Source: Streptomyces sp. NBC_01283 (GTDB lineage Bacteria; Actinomycetota; Actinomycetes; Streptomycetales; Streptomycetaceae). From it: a DNA stretch of 64,000 bases. Made by a program: the position numbers and the translations under genes. The notes beneath the pieces were generated by a model that saw only the letters and a list, made by a program, of their open reading frames with translations, ran no database searches and was not told the DNA's origin. Below, one piece after another: positions 2,323 through 42,130 of the stretch; position 1 is the stretch's first letter; every line of letters starts with the position of its first letter. The stretch covers positions 2,958,501 through 3,022,500 of the forward strand of contig NZ_CP108430.1 in NCBI RefSeq assembly GCF_041435335.1. The letters are read 5' to 3'.

Positions 2323-3927
2323 CTACTCGACCGGCTCGACGCCCGCCCGCAGCAGTCCGTAGGTGTACGCGTCCTCCAGCGCCTGCCAGGACGCCGCGAT
2401 GACGTTCTCCGCGACACCCACCGTCGACCACTCGCCGTCACCGTCACTGGTGGAGATCAGTACCCGGGTCGTGGACGACGTGCCGTGCTTGCCCTCCAGG
2501 ATGCGGACCTTGTAGTCGACGAGCTCCATCTTGGCGAGCTGGGGGTAGATCCGCTCCAGACCCACCCGGAGCGACCGGTCGAGCGCGTTGACCGGGCCGT
2601 TGCCCTCCGCCGTGGCGACGATGCGCTCGCCCTTGGCCCACAGTTTCACCGTCGCCTCGTTCGCGTGCGTGCCGTCGGGCCGGTCCTCGACGATGGCCCG
2701 CCAGGACTCGACGCGGAAGTAGCGCCGGGCGCGCCCCTCGACCTCTTCGCGGAGCAGCAGCTCGAAGGACGCGTCGGCGGCCTCGAACGTGTACCCCTGG
2801 AGCTCGCGCTCCTTGACCCGCTCGACGACCCGGCCCACCAGCTCCCGGTCGTCGCCCAGGTCGATCCCGAGCTCCTTGCCCTTGAGTTCGATGGAGGCGC
2901 GGCCCGCCATGTCCGAGACCAGCATCCGGATGCGGTTGCCGACCAGGTCCGGGTCGATGTGCTGGTAGAGGTCCGGGTCGACCTTGATCGCGGAGGCGTG
3001 CAGGCCCGCCTTGTGGGCGAAGGCCGAGACGCCCACGTACGGCTGGTGCGTGGAGGGGGTGAGGTTGACGACCTCGGCGATGGCGTGCGAGACGCGGGTC
3101 ATCTCGCGCAGCGCGCCCTCGGGCAGGACCTGCTTGCCGTACTTGAGCTCAAGGGCGCCGACGACGGGGAAGAGGTTGGCGTTGCCGACCCGCTCGCCGT
3201 AGCCGTTCGCGGTGCACTGCACGTGGGTGGCACCGGCGTCGACGGCGGCGAGGGTGTTGGCGACCGCGCAGCCGGTGTCGTCCTGCGCGTGGATGCCGAG
3301 CCGGGCGCCGGTGTCGGCGATCACGGTGCCGACGATCGCCTTGACCTGGGCGGGGAGCATGCCGCCGTTGGTGTCGCACAGGACGACGACGTCGGCGCCC
3401 GCCTCGGAGGCCGTGCGGACGACGGATTTCGCGTACTCGGCGTTGGCGCGGTAGCCGTCGAAGAAGTGCTCGCAGTCGACGAAGACGCGCCGCCCCTGGT
3501 CGCGGAGGTAGGAGACGGTGTCGCGCACCATCTCCAGGTTCTCCTCCAGGGTCGTGCGCAGGGCGAGCTCGACGTGCCGGTCATGAGCCTTGGCGACCAG
3601 CGTGATGACCGGGGCGCCGGACTCCAGCAGGGCGTTGACCTGCGGGTCCGAGGCCGCCGAGCCACCGGCGCGGCGGGTGGCGCCGAAGGCGACGAGCTGG
3701 GCGTGCCGGAAGGTGATCTCTTGCTGAGCGCGGGCGAAGAACTCGGTGTCGCGGGGGTTGGCGCCCGGCCAGCCGCCCTCGATGAAGCCCACGCCGAAGT
3801 CGTCCAGGTGCCGGGCGATGGTCAGCTTGTCCGCGACGGTCAGGTTGATTCCCTCACGCTGTGCTCCGTCGCGCAGCGTGGTGTCAAAGACGTGGAACGA
3901 ATCGTCGGGTGTGCTGGTTTCCGTCAT
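2323..3927 (-). CDS. cimA: (R)-citramalate synthase
   Basis: 534 residues, the normal length for CimA. It would condense pyruvate and acetyl-CoA to citramalate, feeding the threonine-independent route to 2-ketobutyrate and isoleucine. The N-terminal HMGL/LeuA-type TIM barrel starts with the DTTLRDGAQREG motif (about residue 15) and carries the HAQDDTG metal-site segment. The C-terminal third matches the LeuA/CimA dimerisation-regulatory domain (EGNGPVNALDRSLR, then DYKVRILEGK). Length and the citramalate-type N-terminus argue against 2-isopropylmalate synthase. AGGAG lies 10 nt before the ATG. The 365-base upstream gap contains a leader frame with tandem Ile codons and an intrinsic terminator (separate entries), which suggests control by isoleucyl-tRNA charging. 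Confidence 0.93.
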   Translation of the reverse strand: MTETSTPDDSFHVFDTTLRDGAQREGINLTVADKLTIARHLDDFGVGFIEGGWPGANPRDTEFFARAQQEITFRHAQLVAFGATRRAGGSAASDPQVNALLESGAPVITLVAKAHDRHVELALRTTLEENLEMVRDTVSYLRDQGRRVFVDCEHFFDGYRANAEYAKSVVRTASEAGADVVVLCDTNGGMLPAQVKAIVGTVIADTGARLGIHAQDDTGCAVANTLAAVDAGATHVQCTANGYGERVGNANLFPVVGALELKYGKQVLPEGALREMTRVSHAIAEVVNLTPSTHQPYVGVSAFAHKAGLHASAIKVDPDLYQHIDPDLVGNRIRMLVSDMAGRASIELKGKELGIDLGDDRELVGRVVERVKERELQGYTFEAADASFELLLREEVEGRARRYFRVESWRAIVEDRPDGTHANEATVKLWAKGERIVATAEGNGPVNALDRSLRVGLERIYPQLAKMELVDYKVRILEGKHGTSSTTRVLISTSDGDGEWSTVGVAENVIAASWQALEDAYTYGLLRAGVEPVE

Positions 3928-4036
3928 GCTGATCTGGCTCCTGTGTCGGATCTCGGTCTACCGGAATGACCGGCTCCACCGCCTCAATGATCCCTCGCGC
4001 TCCGCGTCCGGCTGATGTTGGGCCAGGAAACGAAAA

Positions 4037-4060
4037 AACCCCTCGTGGGTACGAGAGGTT
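4037..4060 (-). terminator. Attenuator-like intrinsic terminator in the cimA leader
   Basis: On the minus strand 4060-4051 (AACCTCTCGT) pairs along all ten positions (one T-G wobble) with 4046-4037 (ACGAGGGGTT), with a 4-nt loop, and runs straight into six T's at 4038-4033. It lies 110 nt upstream of cimA. It is not the terminator of the upstream gene, which has its own 13-bp hairpin at 4247-4278. The 9-mer TCTCGTACC of the 5' arm region also occurs at 4111-4103, so an alternative pairing is possible. Confidence 0.65.
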
Positions 4061-4114
4061 TGCGCGCGGGTCGAGAGACGACGGTGTCCGCCCGTACATG
4101 GTGGTACGAGACGG

Positions 4115-4165
4115 TCACTGCGGACCGGCGCGCCTGCTGCCAATAATCATGGCGAACGAGAGCAC
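4115..4165 (-). CDS. Candidate cimA leader peptide with tandem Ile codons
   Basis: A short frame on the minus strand reads V/M-LSFAMIIGSRRAGPQ-stop from a GTG at 4165, or MIIGSRRAGPQ from the ATG at 4150. It has two consecutive ATT codons, rare in this genome, and CimA makes the isoleucine precursor. An AGG lies 8 nt before the GTG; the ATG has no clear ribosome binding site. The stop codon lies 4 nt before the upstream TCTCGTACC copy and 55 nt before the terminator stem. The spacing suits transcription attenuation, but the peptide is inferred from position and codon content only. Confidence 0.35.
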   Translation of the reverse strand: MLSFAMIIGSRRAGPQ

Positions 4166-4246
4166 GGTGGCAGCCTGCCACAGCCCGCACACACCGCGCT
4201 GCCCCGTCTCACGATGCGGGCGCACCTGGACGGTCCGGGCACCACG

Positions 4247-4278
4247 GTGCGGGCGGCGCGTGGGTGCGCCGCCCGCAC
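4247..4278 (-). terminator. Terminator after the beta-propeller protein gene
   Basis: A perfect 13-bp inverted repeat (4247-4259 with 4266-4278, 6-nt loop) lies 15 nt downstream of the stop at 4293. It has no T-run, as is usual in Streptomyces. Confidence 0.7.
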
Positions 4279-4292
4279 GCCGTACGGCCGTG

Positions 4293-5591
4293 TCAGCGCA
4301 GGTGACGCACGAAGACGTCCCGCACCCCGTTGGTGTCGTCCGGCACCAGATTCGTGGCGTCCGAGGTGAACGCGACGGTCCGGGCGTCCGCACTGAGCCC
4401 GTAGTGGGAGACGGCGGAGTCGGCCTCGCCGCCGCCTTGCGGCACGTCCACGCGCTGGTTCTTGCCGGTGCGCAGATCGCGTACGTAGAGGGAGGCGCTG
4501 CCGGGATCGCCTGCGACGAGACCCGAGGCGCTGGAGACGAACACGACGCGGCGGCCGTCCGGGGTGATCTTGGCCTCGATGGAGTTGCCGTCCGGCTGGC
4601 TGCCGTCGGCGGCGTACACGATCCGCTCGATGGCGTCGGTGCGCAGGTCGATGCGGAAGACGTCGTACTTCTCGTTCGTGTCGCCGGGGACCAGGTCGCC
4701 GGAGCGCGCGGTGAAGACGCCGTACCGCCCGTCCCTGGTCAGCGAGTCGACACCGACCTCGCGGTCGGCGCCGGACGGCGTGAGGTCGAGGCGCCTGCTC
4801 TGGCCGGTCTTCCTGTCGTAGAGGTAGGTGCGCCCGTCGAGGCCGGGACGCTGCTGGCCCATCGAGTAGGCGATGTGGCTGCCGTCGGCGCTCACGGTGA
4901 ACTGCGAGATGAAGTACGACGAGCTGGCCCCGCCGGTGACGATCTCGCTGATCCGCTTGGTGGTCCCCTTCTTGCGGTCGCGGACGTACACGCCGCTGTT
5001 CATCCCGTCCACGTAGTCGCCGTTGTCCTTGAGCGACGAGACGAACGTGACGTACCGGCCGTCCTCGCTCGTCTCGGCGGCCGTCGTGCTCTGCCCCTCC
5101 ACCGGCTTGTCCGCGTCCGAGAGGCTGACGAGCTCGGTCCGCTTCGTCTTGAGGTCCCGCACGTAGATGCCGCTGTAGTACTCGCCCCGCTCGTACGTGA
5201 CGGCGGCGAACGTCACATAGCGGCCGTTGTCGCTGATGGTCGGCCGCTGGCTCACGAAGTCGGTGAACTCGGCGCCGGAGTCCTGCACGCTGACCCGTTC
5301 GACCGTGCCGCGCTTGAGGTCGCGTACGTAGACGTCGGGCCAGGTGTCGGTGTCGCCCGGCGTGAGGTTCTTCGCCTCCGAGGAGAAGACGACGTACCGC
5401 CCGTCGGCGCTGACGTCCGGGTACTCCGACGCCCCGTCGGCCTGCGCTCCGTCCCCCGCGACGCTCACCCGCTCGGTGCGGGGCGTGTCGGCGGCGCCGG
5501 GGGCGGCAAAGGCGGCGGGCAACGTCGTGGCCGTGACGGCCGCGACAAGTGCGGCGGCCGTCAGGGCGGCGCGGCGCTTGGTGCTGTGCAT
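4293..5591 (-). CDS. Exported WD40-like (PD40/TolB-type) beta-propeller protein
   Basis: 432 residues from the ATG at 5591, which has GGGGGA 7 nt upstream; the longer in-frame extension lacks such a site. The signal peptide is MHSTKRR followed by an Ala-rich stretch to about residue 32. The mature part is built of repeated units of the pattern SADGRYVVF-S...DTN...DVYVRDL, at least seven times, typical of PD40 propeller blades. Such proteins are exported, and the role is unknown. No catalytic residues can be named. A remnant of a second copy lies just upstream (5726-5853), so this locus once held a tandem pair. Confidence 0.85.
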   Translation of the reverse strand: MHSTKRRAALTAAALVAAVTATTLPAAFAAPGAADTPRTERVSVAGDGAQADGASEYPDVSADGRYVVFSSEAKNLTPGDTDTWPDVYVRDLKRGTVERVSVQDSGAEFTDFVSQRPTISDNGRYVTFAAVTYERGEYYSGIYVRDLKTKRTELVSLSDADKPVEGQSTTAAETSEDGRYVTFVSSLKDNGDYVDGMNSGVYVRDRKKGTTKRISEIVTGGASSSYFISQFTVSADGSHIAYSMGQQRPGLDGRTYLYDRKTGQSRRLDLTPSGADREVGVDSLTRDGRYGVFTARSGDLVPGDTNEKYDVFRIDLRTDAIERIVYAADGSQPDGNSIEAKITPDGRRVVFVSSASGLVAGDPGSASLYVRDLRTGKNQRVDVPQGGGEADSAVSHYGLSADARTVAFTSDATNLVPDDTNGVRDVFVRHLR

Positions 5592-5725
5592 GGTCAAATC
5601 CCCCGTGCTCTCTCGGTGTTCATGGCGTGCGTGGCGTTCATGGTGCGCGTGGTCGGCGCGCGCGTTCACCGCGTGCAATGTCTGTGATGCGCGAGATGGT
5701 CCGATGGTTGCGGTGCGCCGCCGGG

Positions 5726-42000: not shown

Positions 42001-42034
42001 AAAAAACCCCTCGTGCCGTGGGGCAAGCGAGGGG
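42001..42034 (-). terminator. ilvB attenuator: intrinsic terminator in the leader
   Basis: On the minus strand CCCCTCG (42034-42028) pairs with CGAGGGG (42013-42007) and is followed by TTTTTTGTTG. It lies between the leader peptide and ilvB, 71 nt before the start. A competing 10-bp pairing exists: AGCGCGTCGG in the leader codons (42102-42093) is exactly complementary to CCGACGCGCT (42044-42035), which abuts the terminator stem. The 3' arm and T-run resemble those of the cimA leader terminator. Confidence 0.85.
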
Positions 42035-42088
42035 AGCGCGTCGGAGCGGGTGCAGGGATTCCGGTGTTCGGACCGGTGAGTCCCAGCT

Positions 42089-42130
42089 TCAGCCGACGCG
42101 CTTTCCAAGTACGAGAATTCGGGTGCGCAT
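42089..42130 (-). CDS. ilvB leader peptide
   Basis: 13 residues, [13 protein letters not shown], from an ATG at 42130. Codons 5-8 are Ile-Leu-Val-Leu (ATT CTC GTA CTT), including codons rare in this genome, directly followed by the attenuator region. A GAGAGGG ribosome binding site lies 5-6 nt upstream. A BCAA-codon leader upstream of ilvB is known in Streptomyces; ribosome stalling on these codons when charged Ile-, Leu- or Val-tRNA is scarce would favour read-through into ilvBNC. Confidence 0.85.

Follow-up and report, generated by a model that had tools for sequence, protein, structure and literature searches.

Attenuators of the E. coli trp and his type combine amino-acid codons in a leader peptide, an intrinsic terminator, and mutually exclusive 2:3 and 3:4 hairpins. 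In Actinobacteria, amino-acid attenuators are known for trp, leuS, ilvB, cys and other genes (PMC1262725, PMC8079986, PMC10272879, PMC13236596; these articles, like the others below, are cited for the portions of their text that were available). Several actinobacterial leaders resemble attenuators and yet lack parts of the expected machinery, a puzzle raised in PMC1262725.

The leaders of Streptomyces ilvB (ilvL) and leuS (leuL2), whose peptides are given as leaderless (PMC8079986) and which are also treated in PMC1262725, resemble the cimA leader described here: they carry end-product codons and a helix like our P1, placed 0 nt (ilvB) or 2 nt (leuS) before the terminator. They differ in gene and codons, a branched-chain amino acid mix in ilvB and Leu in leuS. 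In the available text of PMC8079986 and PMC1262725, no description of this helix as a shared layout was found; the eight leaders that the former names there do not include cimA, nor was it found in that of the latter. Searches of the open-licence PMC literature listed no cimA attenuator, and PMC2965389 and PMC4833913 do not mention citramalate.

Two further systems provide the terms of comparison. The Corynebacterium ilvB-II motif, or three-hairpin attenuator of C. glutamicum ilvBNC, has a branched-chain amino acid leader peptide and adjacent antiterminator and terminator hairpins (PMC11857589, PMC10272879). These hairpins share a boundary trinucleotide, whereas P1 and the terminator of the cimA leader are flush, with no overlap in 222 of 227 loci. 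In E. coli pyrBI, as in the mechanism proposed below, a nearby ribosome rather than an antiterminator prevents folding of the terminator (PMC10135430, PMC4824070); pyrBI senses UTP through pausing of the RNA polymerase, with which the ribosome catches up, whereas the cimA leader would use a helix.

The cimA leader is an attenuator by every testable feature except an exclusive antiterminator, which was looked for and not found. Like the trp and his type, it has the codons and the terminator; unlike them, it shows no exclusive hairpin pair in equilibrium folding. A short predicted frame carries codons for the product of the controlled pathway, an intrinsic terminator lies between this frame and the gene and, as in the ilvBNC type, a helix directly before the terminator starts just after the control codons.

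The cimA Locus

The window, the 64,000-nt stretch of Streptomyces sp. NBC_01283 that was analysed, covers positions 2958501-3022500 of the 9.59-Mb genome. Its cimA product has as nearest named CimA, among the best 80 of 582 confirmed, that of S. longisporoflavus (98% identity). On the 5´ side of the leader, also on the minus strand, lies a beta-propeller-like gene (4293-5678) with only weak NCBIfam matches. Behind it comes a long hairpin without mismatches (about 4247-4278, by eye). The leader lies between this hairpin and cimA; its features are collected in Table 1.

Table 1. Coordinates in the window of the cimA gene, its leader and the related ilvB leader.
Feature	Position	Strand	Basis
cimA, citramalate synthase, the gene predicted to be controlled	2323..3927	-	TIGR00977 equivalog, 645 bits vs cut-off 450
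U-tract of the terminator	4033..4038	-	sequence
Terminator hairpin, AAACCTCTCGT-ACCC-ACGAGGGGTTT, flush with P1 (0 nt between)	4036..4061	-	terminator scan
P1, 3´ strand, GACCcGCGCGC	4062..4072	-	covariation outside Streptomyces
Hairpin H1 inside the P1 loop, lineage-specific, holding the first TCTCGTACC	4088..4114	-	comparison of loci
Leader ORF, GTG start, 16 codons: GTG CTC TCG TTC GCC ATG ATT ATT GGC AGC AGG CGC GCC GGT CCG CAG TGA	4115..4165	-	frame and conservation
P1, 5´ strand, GCGCGCcGGTC	4123..4133	-	covariation with 4062-4072 outside Streptomyces, across genera and families
Control codons ATT ATT (Ile-Ile)	4142..4147	-	148 leaders compared
-10-like box CAGGCT of the putative leader promoter (CAGACT in many relatives)	4172..4177	-	NANNNT pattern
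ilvB leader of cimA-type layout	42007..42130	-	frame 42130-42089, P1 42102-42093 with 42044-42035, flush terminator hairpin 42034-42007

A preliminary description of this DNA had proposed that cimA is preceded by an isoleucine-sensing attenuator, and the elements that it names were all confirmed in place on the minus strand: the ATT ATT codons (4147-4142), the TGA stop (4117-4115), the hairpin with six T's (4060-4033), and two copies of TCTCGTACC, at 4111-4103 and again at 4056-4048. The kind of element proposed is borne out, since a frame with Ile codons and a terminator is kept far beyond Streptomyces; the detail of the pairing is not, because the TCTCGTACC antiterminator is lineage-specific. 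A terminator scan of 3800-4400 returned this hairpin alone, with 11 pairs (4061-4036), when shuffled sequences lead one to expect 0.2 ± 0.5. The 141-nt leader folds at -59.2 kcal/mol (z -3.8 against its own shuffles; none of 200 shuffles was as good).

The Leader Frame and Its Control Codons

The start codon was left unnamed in the preliminary description, whose interval extends to 4165, where an in-frame GTG (4165-4163) begins. This GTG lies six nt 3´ of the -10-like CAGGCT. A NANNNT box precedes the leader start codon at all 149 Streptomyces loci, with a spacing of 6 nt (137 loci) or 7 nt (12), in a search with a loose pattern that left the script free to pick the in-frame start and a spacing of 4-9 nt; at the remaining called loci with an Ile codon, 80 in number, its spacing is 5-8 nt. 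The constancy of the box in Streptomyces suggests that transcription starts at the GTG, and the transcript is probably leaderless. The codon at the leaderless position is GTG (141) or ATG (7) in all 148 Streptomyces leaders compared; L043, the one locus of 149 that missed the leader pattern, has GTG and ATT ATT by eye. The internal ATG (4150-4148) was considered as an alternative start and rejected: relatives often carry ACG there, and sometimes GTG, AGC or ATC, so that the start is taken to be GTG (ATG in a few). Many relatives share a further DNA box, C(A/G)T..TGAGAC (4206-4216, minus strand; by eye), some 30 nt upstream of the -10 box; it is a possible activator site.

An open frame ending in TGA is present at 149 of 149 Streptomyces loci. 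In one group, a one-nucleotide change shifts the frame, so that the stop lies at +23 instead of +16 relative to the helix start and the peptide reads MLATTMIIGSSAPVRSGH. The leader peptides vary widely, being MLSFAMIIGSRRAGPQ in the window strain and elsewhere, for instance, MQQWLIISRGVPATG or MAQALIIG (initiator Met written for GTG); in MSFAMIIG a TAG follows immediately after Gly, and across all loci the stop is TGA, TAG or TAA.

The Ile pair is mostly kept, with I-M, I-T and I-N as exceptions. The second control codon in the 148 Streptomyces leaders is ATT (104), ATC (34), ATG (8), ACC (1) or ACG (1); the leader pattern required ATT as the first control codon, and no locus was lost for that reason. 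Non-genus loci carry 127 ATT and 28 ATC codons at this site. In the cimA gene itself, Ile is encoded by ATC 20 times and by ATT never; rare ATT codons would raise the sensitivity of the sensor. The invariance of the first ATT in Streptomyces is also compatible with a nucleotide constraint.

Conservation in Streptomyces and Beyond

A search of 150 sampled Streptomyces genomes located cimA in 149. The genus set of 149 loci consists of the window's own, 29 from sampled genomes, the best 80 of 582 confirmed, and 39 of 40 further fetched loci, the fortieth (L147) being left out as a second cimA copy without the element. Some strains are represented twice, and the 148 leaders correspond to 119 distinct sequences. 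Outside the genus, the comparison covered 40 loci of sister genera, 13 of 15 cimA stretches from sister families of the order, and 40 loci from 29 families of the class. The class-level loci were drawn from the 76 matching genomes that are not Streptomyces; counting Streptomyces, 83 of 108 genomes matched. The two stretches dropped from the order set were L196, with only 4 nt of upstream sequence, and L194, the better-scoring of two copies in one genome, which is without the element.

The script that called the element required three parts: a terminator, a helix whose end lies 0-6 nt before the terminator, and a frame stop at -5 to +45 of the helix start. With any frame, calls were made at 149/149 Streptomyces, 39/40 sister-genus, 12/13 sister-family and 30/40 class-level loci. 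With at least one Ile codon no more than 14 nt before the helix, the figures were 149/149, 39/40, 12/13 and 29/40, and two or more Ile codons were present at 139, 37, 11 and 26 loci, respectively. The class-level loci that fail number 11 of 40 by script and 9 of 40 by eye. Among uncalled loci, the element is present by eye in L197, L215 and L234, and leader and P1 are visible in L160; the further cimA copies L208-L210 are without it. This comparison of cimA upstream regions, of the kind that the preliminary description had suggested for Streptomyces, shows Ile codons, stop and hairpin kept while peptide and frame vary. A hairpin kept without Ile codons, which would have counted against the isoleucine reading, is not what was found: the codons are kept along with the hairpin.

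Two controls were run. In the first, which mostly destroys the terminator, the 93 non-genus sequences were dinucleotide-shuffled to give 930 sequences; the script called a single one of these, and no call carried two Ile codons. In a stricter control, where the segment from the Ile codons to the terminator was shuffled and the terminator kept, the score of the real P1 was reached in 76 of 10,780 shuffles (class 2/2900, order 10/1100, family 14/3800, genus 50/2980); 40 of the 50 genus cases are due to L037 and L040, two loci that depart from the distance rule because they have a third Ile codon.

A Conserved Helix between Control Codons and Terminator

The conserved partner in the leader is P1, a 10-bp helix that does not overlap the terminator, and not the pairing of TCTCGTACC with the terminator put forward in the preliminary description. 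In 51 aligned Streptomyces leaders, P1 shows no variation, and long leader stretches and the terminator are likewise invariant; P1 conservation within the genus therefore proves nothing, and the covariation comes from other genera and families. The compensated strands are GCACGC/GCGTGC (L158, L181-L184), GCGTGC/GCACGC (L153, L156, L169, L172-L174), GGC/GCC (L161), GCGCGTCGAC/GTCGACGCGC (L193, L222), GCGCATCGAC/GTCGATGCGC (L218) and GCGCAGCGG/CCGCTGCGC (L219). Each of the outer six positions takes two to five standard pair types across 78 non-Streptomyces loci, a variety due in part to a one-nucleotide register shift at 12 loci. As the script chose the helices for pairing, the shuffle controls carry the weight here rather than the percentage paired. 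When P1 strands were exchanged between loci, the locus's own 3´ strand scored a mean of 25.5 against 17.2 for foreign strands and exceeded every foreign strand in 11 of 78 loci, a test that is weak taken alone because many loci share the same P1.

Position seven of P1 is mismatched in 47 of the 78 non-Streptomyces loci (C.C 36, C.A 7, T.T 2, A.A 1, T.C 1). The mismatch is also seen in Streptomyces (4127 and 4068 in the window), and C.C becomes A.A in L192. The 5´ arm of the terminator, AGACCTCTCG (4051-4061, minus strand), hardly varies within the order, whereas the strand that it pairs with alternates between A and G.

Distances and folds were computed for 227 loci, omitting L175 and L206, where the script misplaced a P1 that is of the usual form by eye, the uncalled L160, L197, L215, L217, L225, L226, L227, L233, L234, L239, L240 and L247, and L248, called without Ile and judged false. 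The gap between P1 and terminator is 0 nt in 187 of the 227 and 0-4 nt in all (0-6 allowed by the script), and the last Ile codon lies 4-8 nt before P1 in 211 (0-14 allowed), while the P1 loop ranges from 3 to 64 nt. Fixed ends and a free loop are as expected if P1 connects a stalled ribosome and the terminator. The Ile codons are 28-91 nt from the terminator in linear distance; measured across P1, the group medians are 5-8 nt (range 1-13). The stop lies at least 16 nt from the terminator at all loci; it is found at +23 or +24 in 24 Streptomyces and 7 order-level loci, and at +35 in L156 and L173. H1 has two pairs with changes on both sides in A1, and is absent in L190 and many class-level loci. 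Without it, P1 of L190 is a plain hairpin, and in L219 the P1 loop has 5 nt and the whole element about 80 nt.

Folding and a Proposed Mechanism

The median pair probability of the terminator is 0.96-1.00 in every group, whether the RNA is free, carries an Ile-stalled ribosome or carries a ribosome at the stop; the lowest single values are 0.92, 0.93 and 0.62, respectively. In equilibrium folding, no structure excluding the terminator under an Ile-stalled ribosome was found at the 227 loci (terminator probability at least 0.93), although an antiterminator acting kinetically could escape such folding. P1 has medians of 0.97-1.00 in free and Ile-stalled RNA; in free RNA the medians are 0.97-0.99, with single lows of 0.02 (genus) and 0.19 (family).

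Several other pairings were tried and rejected. Leader CTCTCG with terminator CGAGAG is available in many Streptomyces and absent in L155, L156, L158, L161 and L166 (by eye); leader GGTCCGC or GGTCTG with the terminator's GCAGACC fits L192 and not, for example, L116, L137 or L125 (by eye); the P1 3´ strand with the terminator 3´ arm is broken where P1 covaries (L156, L218; by eye). An outward extension of P1 into the terminator is absent at 222 of 227 loci, the remainder offering 1 nt in one case and a bulged 3-bp option in four.

The E. coli ribosome extends 12 nt past the start of the A site on its 3´ side and about 15 nt beyond the P site on its 5´ side. On this footprint, a ribosome stalled at the second Ile codon would overlap P1 by 2-6 nt, so that a stall on Ile would leave P1 wholly or mostly free. 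A ribosome waiting at the stop would cover the P1 5´ strand if the stop lies no further than about +17 from the P1 start. With the stop at +23 or +24 about half of that strand would be covered; at +35 (L156, L173) it would be uncovered and the ribosome would lie inside the P1 loop, where it would have to hinder P1 sterically.

The mechanism that we propose is as follows. When Ile is plentiful, the ribosome would reach the stop and cover or hinder the P1 5´ strand, and the terminator would end transcription. When Ile is short, the ribosome would stall on the Ile codons with its leading edge at, or a few nucleotides inside, the first P1 pair, and P1 could close. By looping out the spacer, P1 would then act like a clasp, shortening the distance between the stalled ribosome and the terminator base from 28-91 nt to about 5-8 nt. 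At that range the last terminator pairs could not form at the exit of the RNA polymerase, and transcription would read through into cimA. The terminator would not be displaced by P1 base pairing.

Published measurements bear on such distances. In E. coli, the efficiency of a terminator fell from about 90% to less than 10% when a stop codon was placed 5 bp ahead of it; 10-15 nt of free mRNA after the A site have been argued to be necessary for termination, and full terminator efficiency was reached only above 27 nt in the E. coli system (PMC4824070). In vitro, termination dropped from 21.5% to 9.9% when a ribosome was coupled (PMC10135430). By analogy, the published threshold would fall between the Ile-stall distance (across P1) and the stop distance of the cimA leader; several of its minimal forms have 16-26 nt from stop to terminator, as against the more than 27 nt for full efficiency in E. 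coli.

From the conserved arrangement, cimA is very probably under an Ile attenuator. The clasp step, in which P1 brings the stalled ribosome against the terminator, we put a little short of an even chance, and the full statement, ribosome-mediated attenuation reading the isoleucyl-tRNA supply together with the P1 clasp, we regard as evenly poised.

Related Leaders and Second Copies

In the genome of the window strain, the P1-like helices of the ilvB and leuS leaders begin 4-5 nt after the last control codon. That of ilvB, AGCGCGTCGG/CCGACGCGCT, is flush with its terminator; the leuS leader (L275) encodes MRAVRLLLSGPR followed by a stop, and its P1, GCCGCGC/GCGCGGC, ends 2 nt before the terminator. 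The terminator probability in all three ribosome states is 0.99 for ilvB and 0.97 for leuS. In the ilvB leader of S. coelicolor, replacing candidate codons was reportedly without effect (cited in PMC1262725), which is a caution against all attenuator readings; in the window strain the ilvB leader shares the layout of the cimA leader.

An RNA model of the Streptomyces leader matched in 61 of 61 genus genomes with 111-147 bits, and the matches compared with cimA positions (e.g. G000, G031, G052, G053) lie directly upstream of cimA. A second, weaker match (41-61 bits) occurs in 7 of the 61 genomes (L260-L266), in a search with stricter filters that may lose weak matches. The script recovers the full layout in five of the seven (L260-L264); in L266 it is visible by eye, with a frame containing ATC ATT but a U-tract of poor quality, and in L265 a clear leader frame is lacking. 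The gene that follows is a frame-broken second cimA in L262 and a stand-alone CimA regulatory domain (LeuA_dimer, PF08502) in L261 and L263. In L260 and L264-L266 small proteins follow, ACT-domain-like by eye, for which Pfam ACT gave only E 0.061, in L264. Second copies beside CimA-type regulators fit with Ile control.

A wider proposal, offered tentatively and one that may well not hold, is that these leaders represent a class-wide actinobacterial type of attenuator without antiterminator, in which a helix with a free loop would clasp the stalled ribosome to the terminator base, making ribosome and RNA polymerase mutually exclusive at the P1-terminator junction. In this proposal, cimA, ilvB and leuS of one genome would use the device, and some strains would have acquired further copies of it in front of genes for small proteins, including the two stand-alone CimA regulatory domains.

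Alternative Explanations

The main rival to the clasp is the C. glutamicum model of adjacent competing hairpins, in which P1 would be an ordinary antiterminator, as in the "fast" attenuator of ilvBNC: it would weaken the terminator at a shared base, and the ribosome would decide whether P1 forms. Mutational work in C. glutamicum supports adjacent antiterminator and terminator hairpins that compete for the boundary trinucleotide (PMC11857589), and the cimA leader has its parts in the same order and adjacency. However, P1 lacks an overlap into the terminator in 222 of 227 loci, and the two are predicted to coexist; we consider this explanation unlikely, if still to be reckoned with. Far weaker is the antiterminator of the preliminary description, in which the segment right after the leader stop, TCTCGTACC, would pair with ACGAG in the terminator 3´ arm. 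Although TCTCGTACC does occur twice in the window leader, it is not conserved among Streptomyces: its first copy sits in a variable hairpin that reads, for example, CCACGTACGACC in other species, where the terminator is mostly CTCTCGC-ACCC-GCGAG. That hairpin is wholly absent in some sister genera and families (L190, L219) and the segment is missing in L190, L218 and L219, which leaves the model scarcely tenable.

Control might also not depend on a translating ribosome at all. A protein or ligand could read the leader in the manner of a riboswitch or operator, using the ATGATTAT stretch, and both the constant first Ile codon, ATT, of the Streptomyces leaders compared and the long invariant stretches and terminator in 51 of them would suit it. 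Against this very improbable reading, other families keep frame, Ile codons and stop although P1 and the surroundings of the Ile codons differ in sequence. Nor does any Rfam family match, riboswitches, T-box and ilvB motifs included: the covariance models gave no match at gathering score in the window, and at 3850-4400 five weak matches far under the gathering scores. An Ile-independent, fixed terminator, producing a small RNA or shielding from upstream transcription, with cimA driven by a second downstream promoter (GATCAT, 3992-3987), is likewise improbable, if less so. In many Streptomyces loci, a -10-like GAnnAT does precede a stretch of the GGGGGC..GTGG type downstream of the terminator (by eye), but the conserved Ile codons, start, stop and P1, as well as the second copies before other genes, would be left unexplained. 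GATCAT (3987-3992, minus strand) may itself be a second, attenuator-independent cimA promoter, and the further copy L210 keeps a stretch related to this region without the attenuator (by eye).

Biological Significance

In Streptomyces, branched fatty acids and polyketide starters draw on isoleucine and its precursors. If the proposed reading is true, the citramalate route to isoleucine would be under direct tRNA-Ile control in 22 of the 29 class families sampled outside the order (by script). The device would not be explained by base pairing alone, and the same would apply to its ilvB and leuS kin, so that the puzzle of actinobacterial leaders without the expected attenuator parts would become testable. 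In its compact form, of about 80 nt in L219, the element could also serve as an Ile sensor.
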